This document shows, one piece after another, positions 2,190 through 25,560 of a stretch of DNA of 26,373 nt. Each line of letters starts with the position of its first letter. The stretch's first letter is position 1. The stretch comes from a virus, in the IMG/VR virus record IMGVR_UViG_3300013372_003560, positions 1-26,373 of that record; one strand, given 5' to 3'. A program made the translations under genes and the position numbers. The notes below the pieces were generated by a model. That model was not told the origin of the DNA and did no database searches. It saw only the letters and a program-made list of their open reading frames with translations.

Positions 2190-3778
2190 TGTACGAGCTC
2201 ACCCTAGAGGAGATCGAAGAGTGGGACCGCCGGGCAGCGTCTGACCGTCCGATGGATGAGGCGCTAGGTGACCCGGTCTGGAGGCTGACCAATCTCTACA
2301 CCTGTTCCAATCCGAACGGGGAGAAGGTCAAGTTCGTGCCGACCCCGGAGCAGCGCATCGTCATCTGGTCGATCCACACCCGGGGGTGGCGCCGTCTCCT
2401 GATCCCGAAGGCCAGGCAGCTGGGAATGTCACTGGTCCTCTGCCTCATCGGCCTGGACCTGACGGCATTCACCGAGGGGTACAAGGCCGCGCTCGTCGAC
2501 AAGTCTGAGGACGACGCCAAGAAGAAGCTGCGAGAGAAGGTCCGCCTGGCATGGGAGGCCATGGACCCGGCCATCATCACCACTCTGCCCACCACTTTCA
2601 CGACCGGCAGCGTCATCTTCGGGGCGGGGGCGACCGCGTCCAGCTATGAGGCTGACGTGAGCTTCCGCGGCGGCACCGTCCAGTTCCTCCACATCAGCGA
2701 GTGGGGCGAGATCCAGATGAAGCAGCGCGAGCGCAGCCGAGAGATCAGGGACGGTTCGCTCCCGGCCGCAGAGCAGGCCCAGGACGGCATCATCGTCGTC
2801 GAGACGACCTGGCATGGCGGCCTGGATGGTGAGCTGGGCCCCTACGTCCGCGAGGCCCTGGACACCCCAGAGAATGCAAAGGGGCCACGTTCCTGGCGGA
2901 TCCTGTTCTTCCCGTGGTGGTCGTCTCCTGGCTATTCCACCAGCCATGGGTACCAAGACCCCGACAGCCGGGTTTACTTTGAAAAGCTCGAGTATCAGGG
3001 CATCCAGCTCACTGAGCAGCAGCGCAACTGGTACGCCAGCGAGCGCCGGACCCGGGGCAGCCGGGCCATGCGGTCACAGTTTCCTTCGGTGATGGCCGAG
3101 TGCTGGGAGTCAACACCTGAGGGCGTCATCTACGGATCGTTCCTGGAACGGGCCCGGTCAGAGGGACGCATCCTCTCTTTTCTCCCCGACGGCCGACATC
3201 TGGTCCACTCTGTCTGGGATCTGGGGCACCCTCTCAACACCGTCACCTGGCTCGTCCAGGTCACGCCGGCAGAGATCCGGATCATCGACGTCATCATGGA
3301 CCTGGACATCGACCTGGCATCCAGGGCAGCCCTCCTCGCCGCCAAGGGGTGGCAGTACGGCAGCCATTTCCTGCCACATGACGCAGGGGTCAGGCAAAGC
3401 TCCGGGCTGTGTCAGGCCGACGAGTTCCGGCGCCTTCTCAAACCCATCGGGGGGAACGTCCGTGTCGTGCCCCGGGTCACTGACGTCTGGCATGGCATCA
3501 ACTCTCTGCGCCTGTTGTTCCCGCGTCTGGTCTTCCGTCACCCGGAGACGCAGCCTGGCCTGGACCACCTCGGGCGATACCATGCCATCACCGAGAGCAG
3601 CACCGGGGTGGCCCGTGACGAACCCGTCCACGACAAGTACAGCCACGCCGCCGACGCCCTGCGTCAGCTCGCTCAGGCCCTCGACGGTCACATGATCAGC
3701 GGGGGGCACGCTGTCGCGCCGGCCCTCAAGTTAAACGCGCCCTCTGCCATGATCGTCCGGGCCCGCTCTCGCCTATGA
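2189..3778 (+). CDS. terL: Terminase large subunit (ATPase and nuclease)
   Basis: This is the packaging motor. It has an N-terminal ATPase that translocates DNA and a C-terminal RNase H-like nuclease that cuts the concatemer. The visible motifs (529-aa numbering) are a deviant Walker A KARQLGMS (74-81), Walker B FLHISEWGE with E171 as likely catalytic acid, and nuclease acids in HSVWDLGH (D344), LPHDAG (D398) and HDKYSHAADALR (D482/D489). The length is usual for the family. The ATG at 2189 overlaps the small subunit stop; a GTG at 2186 would add one residue. The next gene overlaps its stop by 4 nt (ATGA). Confidence 0.93.
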   Translation: MYELTLEEIEEWDRRAASDRPMDEALGDPVWRLTNLYTCSNPNGEKVKFVPTPEQRIVIWSIHTRGWRRLLIPKARQLGMSLVLCLIGLDLTAFTEGYKAALVDKSEDDAKKKLREKVRLAWEAMDPAIITTLPTTFTTGSVIFGAGATASSYEADVSFRGGTVQFLHISEWGEIQMKQRERSREIRDGSLPAAEQAQDGIIVVETTWHGGLDGELGPYVREALDTPENAKGPRSWRILFFPWWSSPGYSTSHGYQDPDSRVYFEKLEYQGIQLTEQQRNWYASERRTRGSRAMRSQFPSVMAECWESTPEGVIYGSFLERARSEGRILSFLPDGRHLVHSVWDLGHPLNTVTWLVQVTPAEIRIIDVIMDLDIDLASRAALLAAKGWQYGSHFLPHDAGVRQSSGLCQADEFRRLLKPIGGNVRVVPRVTDVWHGINSLRLLFPRLVFRHPETQPGLDHLGRYHAITESSTGVARDEPVHDKYSHAADALRQLAQALDGHMISGGHAVAPALKLNAPSAMIVRARSRL

Positions 3779-4134
3779 CCCCGCTCGACATCGCCTTCCA
3801 GGTCTACCTCAACCACCCAACAAAGCGCAACTTTGGTGAGGACCTCGCCTCTCACCTGCGTCACGGCTGGGTCTTCGGGACACCCTCTGCTCTTGTCCTT
3901 GGCCGGCCGGTCCCCCGGGACGCTGACCCGGCCCTCATCGTCTCCGCGGAGCATGCTTTCCCACCTGAGGACTGCGATTGCTGGCACATCTGGCTGGGCG
4001 TCGGCGCCTGGCAGCCCATCCTCCTGCAGAGTCTGCCCTACGTCTTGCCCTGGATGTCATGGGAGCGGCGCTTCCGTCTCCGGTTCCACCGAACGTCATC
4101 GGTCCTTGCATTTGCTCGCCGGGGACCCCTCTAG
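3775..4134 (+). CDS. Conserved-looking phage protein of unknown function
   Basis: This 119-aa protein starts inside the terL stop (ATGA), so it is probably translationally coupled to it. It begins MTPLDIAFQVYLNHPTKRNF and has a central acidic/aromatic stretch AFPPEDCDCWHIWLGVGAW. It then has a hydrophobic segment SLPYVLPWMSWERR and a basic tail FRLRFHR. The HAFPPEDCDCWHIW pattern and third-position GC support it as a real gene. I do not recognise a domain. Its position between terL and portal suggests a packaging or head role, but that is only context. Confidence 0.65.
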   Translation: MTPLDIAFQVYLNHPTKRNFGEDLASHLRHGWVFGTPSALVLGRPVPRDADPALIVSAEHAFPPEDCDCWHIWLGVGAWQPILLQSLPYVLPWMSWERRFRLRFHRTSSVLAFARRGPL

Positions 4135-15083: not shown

Positions 15084-16687
15084 TGGCCACCCTCACCAAA
15101 CTCCAGCGCGCCGAACGTAGGATCCCAACCTCCGCTGGGCTCGACGTCATTTCACAGTCGGGCGCCGCGGCCGGGGCGGTCAAATTCGACCCCCAAGGGA
15201 TGGGTGTCCAGGCTCCGCAAATCAACGTCCGCGGGTTCCTGGATGAGGCGCGTGGAGCGGCTGTCATTGGGCAGGGCATCCAGCAGGTCGGGGGCGCCAT
15301 GTTCAAACTGGCCGAGGAGCAGGCTCAGGCTGTGGCTCTCCGCCAGAAGCTGGACTTTGAATCCCAACTGGGGAGCATCGAGACAGAACTTGCGACAGGG
15401 ATCACGGCTGAGCCTGATGAGCTGAAGTGGGGGACGATTCTCGAGGGGGGACTGGAAAAAGCGAAGATGACACTGGAGGCCCAGCCCATGGCCGGGATCG
15501 CCAAGCAGGAGTCGATGGCAGCCCTCAGTCGGTGGGAGAAGCAGCAGCGCCACAACATCACCATCCAGCAGGCGCGCCGGTCGTTTGATCGAGTGCGTGA
15601 GGGAATCTCGGCGCGGGTAACGCAACAGATGACATCCCGGAACTGGGACGGAGTAACCGCGGACCTGCAGGCGCCCGAGGTGGCGAAGTACATGGGAGAG
15701 GACTGGGCGGCGACCCAGCAAAGTCAGCTGGCCAAGACCATGGAAGCTGACGCGGAGAAAACGCGTTACGATCAGAATTTCACCGAGCTCACTCAAGACC
15801 CGGACACCTGGCTGGAGGCAAACAGCAAACCATGGGACGACAATGCTCCGATGTGGCAGCGACTGACCAACCAGGCGCAGGCCCGCAAGGGTGAGATCTC
15901 CTCAGGTGCTGTCGACGCGGTCCTGGACGACATCATGTCCGGCCAGATCACGCACCCAGGAGAGATCGATGTCCTGACCGACCCGGGTCTCACGCCTGCC
16001 CTTCGCGAGAAGCTCAAGGCCGACGTCTACAAGTACGACAAGGTCCAGTCCGACGTGGAGAAGGCGGAGAATGGCGAGCGCAACTGGCTCGACATGTGGA
16101 AGCGCGTTCGGGCTTGGCCCGGGGGCAGCTCCGACAAGGCCGCCCTTGAGTACTACGACATGATGAGGGACACCCGGTATGGGGTGCCAGACGACCAACA
16201 AGGCAAGATCTCGGAGCTGCTGTACCGCAAGATGGGACTGACCAAGTCCCCGTCTCCTGAGCCTGAGGTCATGCAGGCGGCGGACAAGATCATTGATCTG
16301 TACTACAACACCGGCGTTTTCAATCAGGGGAAACCCATAAAGACAAAGAACCCGGACGGCACCGAGGTTATTGACCGGGCCGCAGTGGAGAAGTCCGCTG
16401 GCATCGAGGGGCGGCTTCGCCAGGACCTGCGCCGTTATCTCATCCAACACCCGGAGGATGCCGACCCAGTCCGGATCCAAGGCGTCATCCAGCAGCTGCT
16501 CCCATCGACCGTCCGGGCTCACACAACGATGTCCATGGATTCATTTTACCGGGCCCCGAAACCACCGGCGACTCCCGCCCAGACAGAATCTCAATTTAAT
16601 CAGCAGGTCGATTCCTTGGGCCTCCCTCTGAACAGGGACGGCGAGGATCCAATCGACGCAAACCTGCTCCCCCAAATCCCGAACTAA
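15083..16687 (+). CDS. Internal virion (core/ejection) protein, T7 gp15-like
   Basis: This 534-aa, mostly helical protein, rich in Gln, Glu and Lys, lies between the gp14-like and giant gp16-like genes. It contains VRGFLDEARGAAVIGQGIQQ near residues 50-70, then long helices (LAEEQAQAVALRQKLDFESQ), a middle part with repeated W/D-rich turns, and a Pro-rich end. No enzyme motif is evident. Length is shorter than T7 gp15 (about 747 aa). It is expected to form part of the internal core and the trans-periplasmic ejection tube; this is from gene order. It shares 1 nt with the next gene (TAATG). Confidence 0.7.
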   Translation: MATLTKLQRAERRIPTSAGLDVISQSGAAAGAVKFDPQGMGVQAPQINVRGFLDEARGAAVIGQGIQQVGGAMFKLAEEQAQAVALRQKLDFESQLGSIETELATGITAEPDELKWGTILEGGLEKAKMTLEAQPMAGIAKQESMAALSRWEKQQRHNITIQQARRSFDRVREGISARVTQQMTSRNWDGVTADLQAPEVAKYMGEDWAATQQSQLAKTMEADAEKTRYDQNFTELTQDPDTWLEANSKPWDDNAPMWQRLTNQAQARKGEISSGAVDAVLDDIMSGQITHPGEIDVLTDPGLTPALREKLKADVYKYDKVQSDVEKAENGERNWLDMWKRVRAWPGGSSDKAALEYYDMMRDTRYGVPDDQQGKISELLYRKMGLTKSPSPEPEVMQAADKIIDLYYNTGVFNQGKPIKTKNPDGTEVIDRAAVEKSAGIEGRLRQDLRRYLIQHPEDADPVRIQGVIQQLLPSTVRAHTTMSMDSFYRAPKPPATPAQTESQFNQQVDSLGLPLNRDGEDPIDANLLPQIPN

Positions 16688-19600
16688 TGCGCAATCTCCT
16701 TCGTGACGCTGAGGACGCCACCCTCGACTTCGACTCCTGGCACGCCTCGCTCCCTGATGACTTCCGGTCCAGCATCGGCTACCAACTGCAACTGGCCCCA
16801 GACAAGGAGGCAGAGAAGAGAAAGCTCGCGTCCACGATGTGGCTGAGCGCGCAGACCGGGCTGAGCTTGGGCGACGTCAACGAGAGGTACGAGGAGGCTA
16901 AGGGCACCTGGGCCGCTAAACAGGAGCTGCCGAATGACCAGTGGCGAGATGAGGCCACGTTCCAGAGCACTCTCAAGAGCAAGGTGGCCGACTTCAGGAA
17001 CGAGCGCATCCTGGTCGAAGATCTGTCCTCGCAGGCACGGCGGGCGGCCTTGTGGGATGGCAGCAAGCTCCCCGTGGAAAACCGTCCAGAGATGTCCGCC
17101 TGGCGCAGGGCGAAGGCATCAGATCCTGGCTACAAGCCCGACAAGGCCAGCCGGTACGAGGTCGCCTTCGCCGACCAGTATCACAAGGAGCGCGAGCGTC
17201 TGGCCCCTGTGAGCAAGGTGCTCAATGACACCTGGTCGTTCCTCTACGACCCACGAGAACCCACGCCCATCGAGATCTATGATCTGTCGAAGACTGTGGC
17301 CGACCTCCCCCGGGACCAGCAGGACACCGTGCTCGCTGGCCTGGCCGAGCGGGCAAACATGCTGACCGAGGAGGAGCGGGACACCTATCTGCAGCGATGG
17401 GGGAAGGCGTTTAGTCGAGGGCTGGATTCACTGGGATCCGCCACCATCCTCAAGCAGCCGATGCGCATGGCCGCTGACGCAGCAGAGAAGGCTGACCAAC
17501 TGTCGGAGGGGATCGGGATGGGCGGCACTGGGGGCGTTGCCTGGGCGCAGAAGCAGCGCCGGGTGGCCAACATCATGGGCCGTCTCAGCGCCCTCCGTGA
17601 AGAACGGATCGACCCCAACCAGGGGGACAACCTCCTCGAGAAGATCGGGCTGGGGGTAGCCGGTTCTGTTCCAGGCCTCGGCATGGCGGTGGCCATGACG
17701 CCCTTCTCCCTCTATCCTTTGATGGCCGACCAGGCCTACACCGAGCTTGAGAAGTCCTTCCGGGAGTCAGGGATGGATGAGGACAAGGCGGACCGGTACG
17801 CAAACGACATCGCTCCCTTCGCCGGGGCCGCTATGACCGCCCTGGAGCAGGTGACTTTCGGATTTGCTAAAGGGCCCCTGGCCGAGGTGCAGCGCCAACT
17901 CATCCAGCGGCTCGCCAACAGCGCGGCCGTGACCCGTTTCGGGGCAGCCCTCGGGGTGGAGACCCTGGAGCAATTCGGCCAGGAGATCGCGCAGGACAGC
18001 GCGCCGGTCATCTTCGCCGAGGCAGCTCGCATGATGGGCGCTGATATCCCGGATCAGAAGGTCATCGACCGGGTCATGCAGGCGACCACGCCTGAGACAT
18101 TCGGGGTGTCCATCGTCTTCGCCTTGGGCGGCGGCGGGGCCATGCCACAGGTCGAGCAGACCCGTGCCCTGCAGGCTCTAGGATTCCAACCAGAGGCCAT
18201 CGAGGCAGTCCTGGCCGCGGACACCATCCCCGCCAAGCAGGAGGCCTATGCCGCGGGCCTGGAGACAGCTACGCCGTCGCAGGAAGGACAGGATGCGTTG
18301 GCTGCTTTCGCCGAGGCAGAAGCCGCCGCCGAGGAGGAAGCCAACCGCCGGGCAGGTATTCGGGGGATCTCACGGGACTCGGAGGGTTGGTGGGTCAATC
18401 ACCGAGACGGGACACGGACCAAGAGCAGCAGCGCGGAGGCGGCCATCGCCCTGCGTGACGACATCGGTCACGCCCAGGACCTGGCTGTCGCAGAGCAGGC
18501 GGTCCGGATCGCCGACTGGATGGCGGAGAAGGACCCTAAACTCACCCAAGTTTTCGACAACGCGGCCCAGGTTGCGACGGAGGAAGGGGCATTCCTCCTG
18601 CGTCCAGGCGAGGAGCCCCTGCTGATCCCGATGAGCGAGCAGGCGTCGGCAGAACTACAGGCAGAGCTCAATCGTCTGCGGGCGCAGGAAAGCGACCCCG
18701 GGCTCATGGCCTCCATCCTGGGCGACAACATCGTGACCTGGAAGGATGGCATCCGCGATGACGCCGGGGCCATCGTCGAGAGCACCGTCACCCGCAACCT
18801 GAAGGGCGGCACAATCCTGACCCAGTTGCATGAGCGCATGGAGTCGCGTTTTGAGGCATTGATCGGGAGCCAGCGCATGACGACAGACGAGGTCGTCCAG
18901 GCCATCCGCCTGCTCGAATCCGCCACCGGCACCAGAATGCTGGGGGACGTTTTCAGCGCGACCGATCTCCGGGAGACCGCCATCGAACTCGCCGTCGCCG
19001 ACGTGATCGGTCGGCGCAAGGATGGCACCCGCGTCCAGGCAGGCTCGCTCTCTCAGGCGGTCAAGGCTGAGGCCATGAAATCCCCCGAGCAGAGGAATGC
19101 TTTGGGCAAGCTGGGCGACTTCCTGCGTGCCGTCCGGGCTCACGTCATGGCAACCATCCGGACTGCCGCGGCCATCGTCAAAGCTCGCCGCAGTGGGAAG
19201 CTGAAGGACGGCGACGAGTTCTCCTCCTTCGTGGACCGGCTGCTGGGGACCGACGAGCAGAAGGCGTATGACGCTCAGGTCGTGACCACGGCCGAGGACC
19301 TCGCGAGATCCAACGTCACGGCAGCCCGTAATCTGGATCTGAAAGACTTGCGTGACCGAATCAAGCAGTCGATGTCGCTTGGCAGCGTGCACCCCTCGTT
19401 GAAGGAAAAACTTCCAGGGCTCAAAGGCGCCAAGTTTGAAAATCTTCCGCGGGTTCCAGACGAACCGAAGGAGAACAACGTGCAGAAGACGATGGAAGCA
19501 ATCGACACAATCGTCTCCGCCATCGGAAATCCCCTGGAGTCGATGCAGAAGTGGGGCGCCTTCGTGCGCGCCATCATGGGGAAAAAACTAGGCGGCAAGG

Positions 19601-22600
19601 ATACGGACTTCCTCGTCGCCCCTGAAAGGGCGCTGATGTACTCGAGGGGAGAGGGGTTTGAGTTCGTGACGGATTCCTTGGTGAAACGCCCGGAGTACGT
19701 CGCGGCCCGGGAACAAGGTCTTGCCGATGGGGCGCAGATGCTCGCCAACTTTAGAGAGGGCACCCTGAAGCGTGCGGACCTCGCTGGCCTGTTTGCCTGG
19801 GGACTAATGTCCCGGGGGGTTGGGGCGTACATTCAGGAAGGGGCGTATCTGTCACTGCACCGTGACGGACTGATTGAGAAACTCGAAGATGCCTTCAATG
19901 GAAAGCTCACTCCGGATGAGATCAATACGTGGGCGAAGAAAGCAATCAAAGGGGGGCCAGGGGTCTCGGCGTCACAGAACGCCATGATCCTGGGAGAGCA
20001 GGTCCGGGCGCTGATGTCTGACGTGGATGGGAGGCCTGCTATCGACGTCATCCTCGATGCGTGGAAGTCTGACATGACCGGCCCTAAGCTTCGGCGGTTC
20101 GTGCGTTCCATCTTTCACTCAGACCGGCCATCTCTCCAGATCCAGAACAAGGTGCTGTCGTTCATGATCCTGGTCTCGGGGCGGCCCGATGTCCTGGTCT
20201 TGGATCGGATCCAGTTTCGTCACTTGTGGGGCGGGTCGGTGATCGATAAGTCCCTGGACGATCTAGCGAAGAAGGTTCAAAAAGCGAAGGCTGTGACCGC
20301 CAAGCGGTACGGGAAAAACAGTGAGGAGGCTCGCCTGGCGGAAGAGACCTCAGACGACCCGACGAACATCTATGACGCCCTGCCTCTCTTCGATGATGAC
20401 GGGTCATTCAAATTCGCGAAGAGGAAAGACAAGCTGAAAATCGCAACCCAGGGCATCGCCGGAGCGGGGGATGGGGTGCAGGGTATGGCGCTTTATGAGG
20501 TGCTCGAAAGAGGGCTGACCGATCAAGTGCGCGCGGCTTATGATGCGGCGGGGATTAGTTACCCAGGGGTTGGGGCGTTCCACTGGGACTCCTGGCTTGT
20601 CACCTCTCAGCAGGCGATTAGTCACCCAACTCTCAAGGTGGTGTCGGGGGAAGATCTCTCACCGGGAGTCGGGGTCCAACAGGGGAAATTCACCCAGAAC
20701 GACTACGGCATGGTGTTCCGGCTCGACGGCAACTACGCCAGGGAGTTCTTGACCGAGCCGGGGACTTGGGTGATTATCGACAAGGCCAACATCGGCAAGT
20801 ATCAGAAAAAACTGGTCGACAAGGCAATAGGTCGCAGCATCCCCCTTGAAAAAGATGAAACCGGAAACGAACGCACCCGCCCCTGGACTGAAAGCCTCAG
20901 CCCAGAAGAGCGCGTCCGCTTCGACCAGTTCCTCGAATCCCTCGGCGAACGCACTACACCCATTGGAACTCCTCTCGATGAGGGGCGGCCCGATGACGGG
21001 GGACAGCGATCTGGACCCAGCAACGATGCCGGTCAATCCCTCGTGGATGTCATCGGACGAATTGAAGCGGCGGGCGGTCGTCTCCTTGCTACAAAGGGGA
21101 TTGGCGAAGACCAGGGAGGAGGCGGTGCAGATGTTCGAGGACGAGTGGGAGTAATCACCGTCGAGGACTTTTCGCGCATTGCCGGGGCCAACAAGCGGTC
21201 CCACAAATTTGGGACCTCGGTCGACGTCTACGAGCCGAAGGGTTACGATGGGTATGACCTCTTAGTTGTCGAGAGGGACGGAGAAACGGCCACTGCTAGT
21301 ATCTCGCCGAGCGGGGAGATCGGCGCTGTGACAAAGTCAAAAGACGGCGGCCCCGACATGGTCTCCCAGGTCTTCCAAGCAGCGGTCGCTGCCGGGCGCG
21401 TGAGGTGGCTCAACGGGTTCGACACCGTCCTCCCGGGTATCTACTCCGACCTGGGGTTCAAAGCCGAGGCGCGCCTCCCTTTCAACGATGAGTACGCCCC
21501 TGACGGTTGGGATTTCGACACCTACAAAAAGTTTAATGCTGGCCGCCCCGACGTCGTCTTTATGAGGTACGTGGGTGAACCACAGACGTACCAACCCGGC
21601 GATGGGGTGATCGTCGAGGACTACGATGCCGCCGCCGCAATCGTGACGACGAAGGCAACCACCGGGTTCTCCCTAACCCGCGCCATGACACCGGCTCAGG
21701 ATGCGGAGTACGCTTCCGCCGAGGCGCGGGGCGACAAGGAGGAGGGGCAGCGGATAACCAATCAAGCAGCAGAACAAGCAGGAGGAGTTCGCCTCTACAG
21801 AGGTCATTCATCAGGCGACAGGTTGGACACAAAAGTAGCCACCCCAACATTTACCCCAAATCGAATCGTCGCCGAGGAGTATGCTCGGCAGAATCGTGGG
21901 GATGGGGTCGGTGTGGTCACCGATAGCTTTGTTTTCATCAAAAACCCATACGAGTTCAAAGACCCAACAGGGGCTATCACCAAAACCCAATTCAGCGGGT
22001 TCCTCAACGACCTAGGTTTTGACAGTCAAAAAGTTGATGGGTTTGGAACAGAAGTTGAGTGGATGGAAGATGGAGACCCCACCGATTGGGATAACGCATC
22101 AACCGGTGCTTATACGGACTTTTATCCTCTCGCGAATAGTACGGAGGTGACGAAAGCTGCCAGCGAGGCTGGATATGATGGGTTTGTGTACCATGGGATT
22201 TTCTTTGGGGAAGAAGATCAAGAGGGCGCATTTAGTGAAGAGATGCCCCTTGAATACAGGCCCTTCTCGCGCTCCCAAGTGAAGTCGGCCGACCCCTTCA
22301 CCTACGATGCCGACGGCAAGCTGATCCCTTTGTCTCAGCGGTTCAACCTGGGCGACGAGAGGATCAGCTTCTCCCTCTCCTCCCGACTGGACGGTGTGGC
22401 CGATGCGCTGAACAACCGCAAGGCGGATCCAAAGCAGCGGCGTGAGTGGTTCGAGGCTGCCCGGGAGCAAGTCACCGGGATGGCCCGCGCGATGCGCTAT
22501 AACGACTCTCTGACGACGACCAGCCCCTGGATGGAGATGGCTCACGGGCGGGAGATGGCGGCTCTGCGCCGACGTCACAAGGCGGAGCTGGCTGCATTCG

Positions 22601-25560
22601 TGGCGTCTCAGCCATCGACGGCCGAGGAGCATGCTCAGAAGGTGGAGGCCCTGAAGGCCGCGCACGAGTATGACCTGGAAGCAGCCAAGCAGGACGGGTG
22701 GGATGCGACCCGGCGCGATGCTCTGAAGCAACGGCAGCGGGTCGAGATGGAGAAGCTCAAGGGACAGGGGGTCGCCGCTCGCCTGGGCAACAGTGCCGAC
22801 ATCGCCAAGAATCGGGCGGCCCTCGTGAAGGGCCACCAGCGCGAGCTGATGACGATGCAGTCCAAGCACCGCCAGGAGCGGGGTAGGGAGGCATCTAAGC
22901 TCTCAGCTGAATCCAACCGCAAGGAGATGCTGCGGGCGCTGTCGACTCTGGATGCCATCCTGATGCAGTTTCCCTCGGAGGTGCGCGGGAAGGTGGGTGG
23001 CTTCACCAAGCTCGCCGGACTGACCACAACCCAGGCCCGCGAAGATTTCCTCCGCCAGCGGATCGAGAGGCTCGATGAAGTCCTCGAGACCTATCTGCGG
23101 CGCGAGTACACCACCGACATGCGCAAGCTGCTCGACCGGGCGGCGCCGAAAGGGGTCGCTGGGATGAAGCCCAAGGGCTTCGACCCGGACACCCACCGGC
23201 TCCTCCAGGCCGTGGAGAAGGCGATGAATCAAGACCGGGTCGCCGTCGATGGGCGCATGGCTGACCTGGACTCTCAGATCAACTCCGGCGTCCTGACCCC
23301 AGAGGAAGAGGCTCTAGCGATGCGCGAGCATGAGCTCATCAACCTAGCCGGCGACTGGAGCAAGGCTGACTCGAGCCGCATGGCAGCTGCCCTGGAGGCG
23401 ACCGAAGAGACCTATGAGGCCGGCCGGCTGGCATGGGCCCAGAGGCAGGCCATCCTGCGGGCCGAACGGGGCCAGTTGGGGGCAGCTTTAATGACAGCCA
23501 CGGGGCGTCTGGGCACGCCAGAGGAACGCCAAGTCATGGAGGCGGCGGACAACACGCGCCGGGGCGTCTTCAAGAAGACCCTGCTGAGCCTTTCGAGTTT
23601 CGAGGAGGTGATGCGCTTTGCATTCGGCGACGTGCCTGAGGTGAGCGAGGTTGTCGACCGCGAGAGGGCCGCGGCCAACCAGTACGAGGACGCCGTCCAG
23701 AGCCTCGGCAATGATATTGACGCACTATTCGCCCGCCTGGCCGGGGATGCCCTGGCAGGTGAGCGGCTGCGTTACAAGCTGAGTCAGCCGAGCGTTACGA
23801 CAGGCAACTCCTGGGGGACGCTCTCTGAGCTCCAGGTCATTCAAGGGTTGTTGATGTGGAGGCAGCCCGACGGGCAGCGCCACATGGCACAATACCAGAT
23901 CAATGATGCCTGGATCAAGAACGTCGAGGGGCAGCTGAGTCCGGAGGCCGTGGAGGTTATGACTTTTATCAGCCGCCGATATGCTGACGAATACGCCATT
24001 CTCAACCCCGTGTTTCGGGAGGCGATGGGCGTCGACCTACCTCACAACAAACTCTACGCGCCACTCACAGTCACCCCTCAGCAGGTCCAGCCTGGGCAGG
24101 TGGTCGACCCTGTGACCGGCAACGCCATGAGTGGGGCCTCTTTGACCCCTCCGAGCTTGAGGACCCGTTCGATGGTGGCGACCGCTGAGCCGCAATTTCG
24201 CGACGCCCTGGCGACGCTCATCGGCCACAACCGCCAGATCCAGCACTGGATGGCTTACCAGGCCCTGGTGCGTGACCTCAATGTTGTGATCGGTAACCGC
24301 AACCTGCTGAACTCGGTCGAGGCCCGCGGCGGGGAACAGGCTCGCAAGCTCCTGCTCAACTGGGTCCAGATCCTCTCGCAAGGGGGGAACCGGGACGCGG
24401 CGGCCGGTGATCAATTGACAGAACTGATGCGGGGCTACACCGGGCGCTTCGCCCGCATGGCGCTGGTCGGCCGGGTTGGGACGCTGATCATTCAGTCGAC
24501 GCAGTTGGCGGCAGCGGCAGCAGTCATGCCGACCGGGGCCTACGTCGTCCGTTTCGGCAAACTCCTGGCCGGGCAGATGTCCTGGCGTGCCGCTCTCGAC
24601 AGCGACTTCATTCGCCGCCGGGTGGCTCAGGCGCCTCCCGTGGTCCAGCAGGCCATGGAGGGTCTGCGCAGCAGGCAGCCTAACAAAATCAAGCATGCGG
24701 CCCAACGCCTGGGGATGCTGATCTCCGGCGCCGATGGTCTCTTCACCGCGGGGACTTACGCGATTGTTTTCGACTACCAGCGCCAGGAGCTCCTGGCCGC
24801 GGGGGTGAACCCGGGTGATGTCGATGCTCTGGCCCACCAGGAGACGGAGCGGATCGTCGAGCGCGTCGCTCAGCCGACTCGGTTGGCCACGCGCAGCTAC
24901 TTTGAAAATGTGACGACCAACCCTCTCGCGAAGCTGGGCTGGGCGTTTGCCTCCGAGGCCCGTCAGAAACTCGCCCTGGCGAAGTGGGCGGCGGCCAACT
25001 CGGTCACCGATCCCGCTCGGGCCGCCCGGGCTGCGTTCGTGGTTTGGGGTGCGGGAGGTCTCATGGCCGCCATCATCCGCAATGCCTGGCGCGATGCGCG
25101 CGATGATGATGATGACGAGACCTTCGACGACAAACACTGGGGCCTCAAGCGGCTGACAATCCAGACGCTCGCGGGGCCGCTCAATGGGGTCCCTCTGTGG
25201 GGAGATGCGGTCGAGGCCCTCGTCAATGCGGTCGGCAAGCAGCCCAACCTGGGCGACTCCAAAGTCAGCGCCGTGGCCAACGCCTGGCCAGCCGTCAAGC
25301 GACTGTCCACGCTCGAGACCTTCAGCGACGACGAGCCCGTCGAGCAGACTCTGCGGGATGCTGAGTCGTTGTTGGGGATGCTCGGGGTGTTCAACGAGAC
25401 CGCGGCCAGCGCGACCTCTCTCTGGCATGTCCTGCGTGATGGGACGGCCATCGTCGACGGCCTCAACCAGGACGAGGAGGAGGAGAAGACGGCGACCGAG
25501 CGGATGCAAAAGCAGCGCGTCAAGGAGGCGAAGGAGGCCAGGAAGGGGTCGGAAAATTGA
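16687..25560 (+). CDS. Giant modular (polyvalent) ejection protein, T7 gp16 position; possibly two genes
   Basis: The ORF has 2957 codons and starts TAATG-coupled to the gp15-like gene. It occupies the gp16 slot but is over twice the length of T7 gp16 (about 1318). In order: a helical N-terminus; a Gly/hydrophobic segment near 320-370 (GVAGSVPGLGMAVAMTPF); a QLHERMESRF helix (H715) with an incomplete metallopeptidase-like HExxE; a segment around 990-1310 resembling HhH DNA glycosylases (KVLSF..SGRPDVLVLDRIQFRHLWG, D1173); a GNAT-like segment about 1487-1650; an ADP-ribosyltransferase-like module about 1667-1890; a charged coiled coil about 1948-2075; and a C-terminal region with hydrophobic stretches near 2591-2630 and 2782-2800 typical of large polyvalent phage proteins. 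No lytic transglycosylase was recognised. The coding signal leaves this frame at about 20998-21154, so a split into 16687-21154 and 21145-25560 is possible. Domain names are from pattern recognition. Confidence 0.75.
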   Translation: MRNLLRDAEDATLDFDSWHASLPDDFRSSIGYQLQLAPDKEAEKRKLASTMWLSAQTGLSLGDVNERYEEAKGTWAAKQELPNDQWRDEATFQSTLKSKVADFRNERILVEDLSSQARRAALWDGSKLPVENRPEMSAWRRAKASDPGYKPDKASRYEVAFADQYHKERERLAPVSKVLNDTWSFLYDPREPTPIEIYDLSKTVADLPRDQQDTVLAGLAERANMLTEEERDTYLQRWGKAFSRGLDSLGSATILKQPMRMAADAAEKADQLSEGIGMGGTGGVAWAQKQRRVANIMGRLSALREERIDPNQGDNLLEKIGLGVAGSVPGLGMAVAMTPFSLYPLMADQAYTELEKSFRESGMDEDKADRYANDIAPFAGAAMTALEQVTFGFAKGPLAEVQRQLIQRLANSAAVTRFGAALGVETLEQFGQEIAQDSAPVIFAEAARMMGADIPDQKVIDRVMQATTPETFGVSIVFALGGGGAMPQVEQTRALQALGFQPEAIEAVLAADTIPAKQEAYAAGLETATPSQEGQDALAAFAEAEAAAEEEANRRAGIRGISRDSEGWWVNHRDGTRTKSSSAEAAIALRDDIGHAQDLAVAEQAVRIADWMAEKDPKLTQVFDNAAQVATEEGAFLLRPGEEPLLIPMSEQASAELQAELNRLRAQESDPGLMASILGDNIVTWKDGIRDDAGAIVESTVTRNLKGGTILTQLHERMESRFEALIGSQRMTTDEVVQAIRLLESATGTRMLGDVFSATDLRETAIELAVADVIGRRKDGTRVQAGSLSQAVKAEAMKSPEQRNALGKLGDFLRAVRAHVMATIRTAAAIVKARRSGKLKDGDEFSSFVDRLLGTDEQKAYDAQVVTTAEDLARSNVTAARNLDLKDLRDRIKQSMSLGSVHPSLKEKLPGLKGAKFENLPRVPDEPKENNVQKTMEAIDTIVSAIGNPLESMQKWGAFVRAIMGKKLGGKDTDFLVAPERALMYSRGEGFEFVTDSLVKRPEYVAAREQGLADGAQMLANFREGTLKRADLAGLFAWGLMSRGVGAYIQEGAYLSLHRDGLIEKLEDAFNGKLTPDEINTWAKKAIKGGPGVSASQNAMILGEQVRALMSDVDGRPAIDVILDAWKSDMTGPKLRRFVRSIFHSDRPSLQIQNKVLSFMILVSGRPDVLVLDRIQFRHLWGGSVIDKSLDDLAKKVQKAKAVTAKRYGKNSEEARLAEETSDDPTNIYDALPLFDDDGSFKFAKRKDKLKIATQGIAGAGDGVQGMALYEVLERGLTDQVRAAYDAAGISYPGVGAFHWDSWLVTSQQAISHPTLKVVSGEDLSPGVGVQQGKFTQNDYGMVFRLDGNYAREFLTEPGTWVIIDKANIGKYQKKLVDKAIGRSIPLEKDETGNERTRPWTESLSPEERVRFDQFLESLGERTTPIGTPLDEGRPDDGGQRSGPSNDAGQSLVDVIGRIEAAGGRLLATKGIGEDQGGGGADVRGRVGVITVEDFSRIAGANKRSHKFGTSVDVYEPKGYDGYDLLVVERDGETATASISPSGEIGAVTKSKDGGPDMVSQVFQAAVAAGRVRWLNGFDTVLPGIYSDLGFKAEARLPFNDEYAPDGWDFDTYKKFNAGRPDVVFMRYVGEPQTYQPGDGVIVEDYDAAAAIVTTKATTGFSLTRAMTPAQDAEYASAEARGDKEEGQRITNQAAEQAGGVRLYRGHSSGDRLDTKVATPTFTPNRIVAEEYARQNRGDGVGVVTDSFVFIKNPYEFKDPTGAITKTQFSGFLNDLGFDSQKVDGFGTEVEWMEDGDPTDWDNASTGAYTDFYPLANSTEVTKAASEAGYDGFVYHGIFFGEEDQEGAFSEEMPLEYRPFSRSQVKSADPFTYDADGKLIPLSQRFNLGDERISFSLSSRLDGVADALNNRKADPKQRREWFEAAREQVTGMARAMRYNDSLTTTSPWMEMAHGREMAALRRRHKAELAAFVASQPSTAEEHAQKVEALKAAHEYDLEAAKQDGWDATRRDALKQRQRVEMEKLKGQGVAARLGNSADIAKNRAALVKGHQRELMTMQSKHRQERGREASKLSAESNRKEMLRALSTLDAILMQFPSEVRGKVGGFTKLAGLTTTQAREDFLRQRIERLDEVLETYLRREYTTDMRKLLDRAAPKGVAGMKPKGFDPDTHRLLQAVEKAMNQDRVAVDGRMADLDSQINSGVLTPEEEALAMREHELINLAGDWSKADSSRMAAALEATEETYEAGRLAWAQRQAILRAERGQLGAALMTATGRLGTPEERQVMEAADNTRRGVFKKTLLSLSSFEEVMRFAFGDVPEVSEVVDRERAAANQYEDAVQSLGNDIDALFARLAGDALAGERLRYKLSQPSVTTGNSWGTLSELQVIQGLLMWRQPDGQRHMAQYQINDAWIKNVEGQLSPEAVEVMTFISRRYADEYAILNPVFREAMGVDLPHNKLYAPLTVTPQQVQPGQVVDPVTGNAMSGASLTPPSLRTRSMVATAEPQFRDALATLIGHNRQIQHWMAYQALVRDLNVVIGNRNLLNSVEARGGEQARKLLLNWVQILSQGGNRDAAAGDQLTELMRGYTGRFARMALVGRVGTLIIQSTQLAAAAAVMPTGAYVVRFGKLLAGQMSWRAALDSDFIRRRVAQAPPVVQQAMEGLRSRQPNKIKHAAQRLGMLISGADGLFTAGTYAIVFDYQRQELLAAGVNPGDVDALAHQETERIVERVAQPTRLATRSYFENVTTNPLAKLGWAFASEARQKLALAKWAAANSVTDPARAARAAFVVWGAGGLMAAIIRNAWRDARDDDDDETFDDKHWGLKRLTIQTLAGPLNGVPLWGDAVEALVNAVGKQPNLGDSKVSAVANAWPAVKRLSTLETFSDDEPVEQTLRDAESLLGMLGVFNETAASATSLWHVLRDGTAIVDGLNQDEEEEKTATERMQKQRVKEAKEARKGSEN
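19400..20850 (+). other. Giant-protein segment resembling HhH DNA glycosylases
   Basis: Residues about 905-1388. The stretch IQNKVLSFMILVSGRPDVLV followed by LDRIQFRHLWGG, with D1173, resembles the helix-hairpin-helix glycosylase pattern in which a Lys/Ser-rich helix, a G-x-P-D turn and a catalytic Asp before an xRxxG helix occur together. GAFHWDSWLVTSQQAISH (from F1298) follows at the distance where related phage/plasmid proteins have a Trp/Gln-rich helix. The match is weak and rests on motif memory. It could be an unrelated polyvalent-protein domain. Confidence 0.3.
20966..21154 (+). other. Coding-like segment in the +1 frame inside the giant ORF
   Basis: In the +1 frame relative to the giant ORF, codons up to TAA at 21152-21154 have G or C at the third position in 49 of 58 cases (hand count from codon ATG AGG GGC). 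The giant frame has only about 47% there. The peptide reads as a natural C-terminus: DSDLDPATMPVNPSWMSSDE, then LKRRAVVSLLQRGLAKTREE and AVQMFEDEWE. Deleting one G from the G5 run at 20998-21002 links it smoothly to the giant protein N-terminal part (GTPLDEGRPDDG-DSDLDPA). Confidence 0.6.
21145..21655 (+). other. GNAT-like segment of the giant protein
   Basis: Residues about 1487-1656. Strands DLLVVERDGETATASISPSG are followed by GGPDMVSQVFQAAVAAGRVR, then LNGFDTVLPGIYSDLGFKAE, ARLPFNDEYAPDGWD and PDVVFMRYVG. The ending, 'L..IYsdLGFk..aR.pFndeyaP..W', is a recurrent acetyltransferase-fold ending in polyvalent phage proteins. Enzymatic activity is not demonstrated by the sequence. The GTG at 21145 is a possible independent gene start, overlapping a stop in another frame. 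Confidence 0.5.
21685..22353 (+). other. ADP-ribosyltransferase-like module of the giant protein
   Basis: Residues about 1667-1889. It opens with MTPAQDAEYASAEARGDKEE, the recurrent linker helix before ART domains in polyvalent proteins. Then come GGVRLYRGHSSG (R1702/R1705/H1707, first NAD-binding strand), TFTPNRIVAEEYARQ (Y1732), AGYDGFVYHG, EYRPFSRSQVKSADPFTYD (E1856), and a closing RFNLGDERISFSL, also a standard module end. The canonical YHG is replaced by YRG, so assignment to the H-Y-E or R-S-E class is uncertain. Such enzymes would modify host proteins after ejection; that is inference. Confidence 0.55.
22529..22910 (+). other. Charged coiled-coil segment of the giant protein
   Basis: Residues about 1948-2075 are a run of heptad-like helices rich in Glu, Lys, Arg, Gln, Ala and regularly placed His: GREMAALRRRHKAELAAF, KVEALKAAHEYDLEAAKQ, RVEMEKLKGQG, GHQRELMTMQSKHRQERGRE. 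It separates the enzyme-like modules from the C-terminal region and may be a spacer or an oligomerisation helix. Confidence 0.65.
24440..25440 (+). other. C-terminal large polyvalent-protein region with membrane-like segments
   Basis: Residues about 2585-2918. Hydrophobic ALVGRVGTLIIQSTQLAAAA and AAFVVWGAGGLMAAIIRNAW flank YFENVTTNPLAKLGWAFASE; the second is followed by an Asp-rich DARDDDDDETFDDKHWG and TIQTLAGPLNGVPLWGDAVE. This order is a hallmark of the C-terminal region of large polyvalent phage proteins. The hydrophobic helices suggest insertion in the host inner membrane during DNA entry; inferred. Confidence 0.55.

Follow-up and report, generated by a model that had tools for sequence, protein, structure and literature searches.

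A hidden small gene inside a giant phage gene, located just before a predicted GNAT-fold domain

Polyvalent proteins of phages are giant multidomain proteins of virion type, and a GNAT family found in them typically neighbours an ART domain in the same polypeptide (Iyer et al. 2017, PMC5512222). The GNATs and ARTs of these proteins are proposed to have conflict-related roles on proteins. In the MuF polymorphic toxins, a virion-associated effector domain is paired with a small ORF, which follows 89.4% of the muf toxin genes and is thought to give immunity (PMC5576092). The Rpn genes-within-genes encode an intragenic small product that restrains the protein it is encoded within (PMC10327210). 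The products of the lambda spanin genes Rz and Rz1 work together (PMC5295617). In that pair, one gene is embedded in another frame of its partner gene. In this study, we found a 53-codon small gene (smORF) written over the DNA of one very large phage protein gene in the +1 reading frame. Relatives of this smORF sit at the same place, just before an acetyltransferase-like domain, in about a hundred phage contigs, and they are unannotated in the annotated records checked.

The window, that is, the whole stretch of DNA analyzed, is the 26,373-nucleotide IMG/VR virus record IMGVR_UViG_3300013372_003560. It carries a T7-like late region with a tail protein of phrog_376 (E 4e-134), a weak match to an internal virion protein family, and a tail-fibre N-terminus. 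The 2957-aa giant ORF lies between the last two, where podoviruses carry large internal or polyvalent proteins. The features discussed below are as follows.

16687..25560, plus strand: giant ORF, 2957 aa, polyvalent virion-type protein, read straight through the smORF
19369..20964, plus strand: upstream conserved module of the giant protein (residues 895-1426)
20980..20985, plus strand: GAGGGG, SD-like site 7 nt before ATG 20993
20993..21154, plus strand: overprinted smORF, 53 aa, MTGDSDLDPATMPVNPSWMSSDELKRRAVVSLLQRGLAKTREEAVQMFEDEWE, +1 relative to the giant ORF, stop TAA 21152-21154, start codon chosen by analogy and SD
20998..21002, plus strand: G5 run inside the smORF, with no evidence of error or slippage
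21145..21639, plus strand: domain of the giant protein with a predicted GNAT fold (phrog_2563 family)
21850..22293, plus strand: ART-PolyVal-like domain of the giant protein
22927..25464, plus strand: C-terminal module of the giant protein (residues 2081-2926), 43% identical to the relative locus L002

An earlier note on this sequence had reported that, between about 20966 and 21154, the third-position G/C signal lies in the +1 frame (49 of 58 codons) and not in the giant frame (about 27 of 58). This observation was confirmed. Over 58 codons from 20965, GC3 was 27/58 in the giant frame and 48/58 in the +1 frame, and the stop TAA at 21152-21154, the GTG at 21145 and the G5 run are as the note described. 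The codon-likelihood preference for the +1 frame (+0.176 per codon) exceeded that of all 1400 comparison windows in the other genes (maximum -0.033). However, synonymous reshuffling of the giant protein showed that the high +1 GC3 is expected from its Gly/Asp/Arg-rich composition (47.0 expected, P = 0.34), and the open +1 frame is also largely what this composition gives (P 0.48); the depressed giant-frame codon score is the unusual part. In addition, giant residues of about 900-1850 (about 19387-22237) form a stretch of unusual codon usage and lower GC3 (about 0.66 in the sampled part against 0.77 elsewhere). This stretch matches the modules that differ between relatives and looks like a mosaic segment. 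Low giant-frame GC3 and the lowest giant-frame codon scores of the whole gene occur at 21754-22236, inside the ART-like region, where no +1 gene is claimed. The depressed giant-frame GC3 and the codon-level +1 preference remained unusual under local codon usage (P = 0.0003 and 0.016, respectively, over 54 codons from 20989). We also considered that the low GC3 might reflect only a foreign insert, but although the mosaic segment is real, it does not explain the conserved +1 family described below. Thus, the decisive evidence comes from relatives and not from GC3.

The note had offered two genes, a frameshift, or an overprinted gene as readings, and its interpretation was partly supported: the overprinted gene is right, whereas two genes split by an extra G in the G5 run are not supported. 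Alignment of both sides of the spot to relatives, which had been named beforehand as a check, showed that giant residues 931-1345/1422 and 1498-1651 both have homologues within single ORFs in five loci (L029, L030, L032, L042, and L081, of which the first three are near-identical). The two parts are joined there by a Gly/Arg-rich, poorly conserved linker, similar to the Gly-rich stretch that the note had found odd. The locus L002 joins homologues of residues 759-866 and 2081-2926 in one ORF. The locus L085 is 53.6% identical over residues 895-1426 (E 5e-176), stays in the giant frame through a Gly-rich linker, and runs directly into the C-terminal module, lacking the smORF, GNAT and ART regions. 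At 3726-3962 it has about 240 nt where the window has about 1.96 kb, and the window-side breakpoint lies near the smORF start. A match of the +1 peptide in the +1 frame of L085 is a shadow of in-frame homology, because L085 has a +1 stop soon after and lacks the GNAT domain. The giant frame was open across the smORF in 57 of 59 loci found by smORF sequence. GTG 21145, which the note had read as a possible second start, is not a conserved start, since relatives have almost no giant-frame start codon from 40 nt before to 60 nt after the smORF stop, so the downstream part is not an independent gene. In L034 and L035 (9645-10513), two samples that agree, the giant ORF ends inside the smORF and the GNAT domain becomes a separate 191-aa ORF, while the near relative L031 keeps it fused.

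The domain that follows the smORF is predicted to have a GNAT fold. The AF2 model of 21145-21630 had a pLDDT of 96.2. Foldseek alone gave no match at E<0.001, but a second comparison with PDB structures by VIA-align gave Z 11.6 to the GNAT protein PA4794 (3pgp), and the top rows were GNAT acetyltransferases. In addition, phrog_2563 was matched by 53 of 54 family members. The acetyl-CoA loop of the window's domain looks degenerate by eye, so catalysis is unproven. The region at 21850-22293 matched Pfam PF18760 (ART-PolyVal) with E 1.9e-5 and 25.9 bits, below the curated cut-off of 31.2, and it is therefore called ART-PolyVal-like only.

Scanning 80 loci that carry the GNAT domain showed, in most of them, a +1 ORF ending 20-160 nt before it with a helical C-terminus of the type PGLTREEAxxMAxxFGF. 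An HMM built without the window had one significant hit among the six-frame ORFs of the window, the +1 ORF in question (E 9.7e-5; next 0.18). Over all loci, it hit 82 of 110 with the domain, always on the same strand, always in the +1 frame and always 20-161 nt upstream of the domain, including loci fetched with a different query and not used for training. Several of the 28 misses have a similar but more diverged ORF by eye, but L007-L011 and a few others do not. The GNAT domains of L007-L011 lie in giant ORFs and are among the closest to that of the window, so the smORF is dispensable in some phages. The window's smORF is one of the most diverged, with an HMM score of only 18.6 bits and a bias of 5.9, and its C-terminus lacks the usual GF. 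Direct searches with it found nothing, because it is diverged and short. Searches of Pfam and PHROGs with the smORF families gave only scattered weak matches.

The substitution pattern of relatives is what selection on the +1 frame produces. In 15 pairs of relatives, substitutions at giant codon positions 1/2/3 were 208/114/467 upstream, 236/164/190 in the smORF, and 289/179/959 downstream, so that the share of position 3 was 32% in the smORF versus 59% upstream and 67% downstream (Fisher p of 8e-16 against upstream and 2e-33 against downstream for positions 1 and 3). For example, the counts for L067/L073 were 9/2/0 in the smORF versus 4/3/27 downstream. The drop in the position-3 share begins 70-80 codons before the smORF stop and ends at the stop. 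The pairs are not all independent lineages, so the p values are indicative, but the effect appeared in most pairs separately, including L005/L006, the subtype nearest the window; the window copy itself has no close relative and forms no pair. A few pairs (L016/L017, L018/L027), whose starts are uncertain, showed the effect weakly.

SD-like sites precede 22 of 31 assigned smORF starts, against 13% for other ATGs in that frame (p = 2e-13), although this number is somewhat flattering because starts were chosen partly by eye with SD in view. The window agrees with this pattern, with GAGGGG seven bases before ATG 20993.

The linkage between the smORF and the GNAT domain was also tested from the smORF side. 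Two scans with smORF alignments alone gave 59 loci examined, of which 55 have the GNAT domain in the giant frame 24-47 codons after the smORF stop. Two of the four exceptions are cut by contig ends, and the other two (L198, L199) lack the domain. In L199 (1296-3953), another sequence stands in its place and the conserved smORF C-terminus is lost, which provides a natural test of the link. The isolated Limnohabitans phage DC33 (PQ492659.1) has the same arrangement, with a 71-aa smORF, whose putative start lies at about 27781 on the minus strand of the record, within its 3125-aa protein. This phage is filed under Inoviridae in the record, yet it is a 39-kb dsDNA phage with an icosahedral head and a short tail. 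Three Microbacterium phages have a near-invariant 47-aa +1 ORF, with 3 differences in 54 codons between Caron and Barnstormer, before the same domain inside another virion protein gene, that of the minor capsid protein. Its relation to the main family is by position and shape only, as the HMM did not hit the Caron locus. The small ORF is not annotated in the records of DC33 or the three Microbacterium phages. Two standalone GNAT genes of Streptomyces phages gave no smORF HMM hit.

Taken together, our results show by comparison that a small gene is overprinted in the +1 frame on the linker just before the GNAT-fold domain, that both frames are used, and that the two elements are linked. It is strongly indicated, though from sequence comparison and not from expression data, that ribosomes start the smORF independently at its own SD and ATG on the late mRNA while the giant frame is read straight through. 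We put a probability of about 0.85 on the overprinted gene being real in this window, and for the family as a whole we are near certain. We infer that its product might be a small helical partner of the adjacent GNAT domain, most likely an inhibitor, immunity factor or assembly chaperone that would keep the effector harmless in the producing cell or help load it into the virion. This role is tentative, since it rests on linkage and analogy alone, binding and neutralization of the domain are inferred, and the AF2 model of the smORF family is weak (pLDDT 67). The smORF and the GNAT domain are inferred to move between virion proteins as one cassette. It is possible, but no more than that, that they represent a widespread class of gene-within-gene pairs in tailed phages, in which an out-of-frame small protein neutralizes or chaperones the acetyltransferase-like domain of the very effector that encodes it until injection.

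The alternative that survives best is that the smORF is real but unrelated in function to the GNAT domain, for example a minor virion protein or a regulator of late translation. This remains a possible reading, given that the partner role is not based on binding data and that GNAT loci without the smORF exist, and the linkage could partly reflect synteny frozen by the overlap. However, the linkage is tight in both directions and is also seen in an unrelated virion protein, the smORF C-terminus is lost where GNAT is replaced, and the smORF HMM found nothing at the two standalone Streptomyces phage GNAT genes. It is unlikely that the window's +1 ORF is a decayed relic carried along with the GNAT cassette and no longer expressed. 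Its diverged and short sequence, the absence of the GF end and the lack of a smORF in some phages would fit such a relic, but its codon use favours the +1 frame (P about 0.016), and the SD and ATG are present; the open frame by itself is weak evidence (P 0.28 by chance over 54 codons). Still less likely is a programmed frameshift, in which part of the ribosomes would slip from the giant frame into +1 and make a truncated product ending in the smORF C-terminus. The frame is always +1, as this would require, but the constant frame follows from descent of a fused arrangement, relatives have their own start codons with SD-like sites and N-termini conserved within subgroups, and the selection signature begins about where the start codons lie, so that slippage at the G run, which the note had proposed, is unnecessary. 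A sequencing or assembly indel in the G5 run, giving two genes of about 1489 and 1471 aa as the note had suggested from the frame switch and the overlap of GTG 21145 with the stop, is strongly disfavoured by the uninterrupted relatives, the lack of a conserved start at the smORF stop, and the membership of the +1 ORF in a separate conserved family.

Overprinted genes are already known, but conserved out-of-frame genes nested in structural genes of dsDNA phages are rarely documented, and gene finders tend to suppress them. This family, its out-of-frame placement inside virion effector genes and its pairing with a GNAT domain were not found in Pfam, PHROGs or the papers searched, which were open-access only, so an earlier report elsewhere is possible. 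The family occurs in many phage contigs (82 found from the domain side and 59 from the smORF side, overlapping sets with some redundant contigs) and in cultured phages whose records omit it. It offers a handle on the open question of how phages that package enzymatic effectors in the virion protect the producing cell or load the effectors.

Compared with the described systems, the giant protein resembles the polyvalent proteins in being a multidomain virion-type protein with a GNAT domain next to an ART-like one, but a search of that report (PMC5512222) for overlapping or small ORFs found no nested gene. Similar to Rz/Rz1, a gene is embedded in another frame of a putative partner gene, although the spanins are lysis proteins with no shared context. 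RpnS is the C-terminal domain of RpnL, translated separately, whereas the smORF is out of frame and unrelated in sequence to its host protein. Finally, the small ORF of the MuF toxins lies downstream and separate from the effector gene, while the smORF described here is overprinted upstream of the effector domain, inside the same gene and in another frame.
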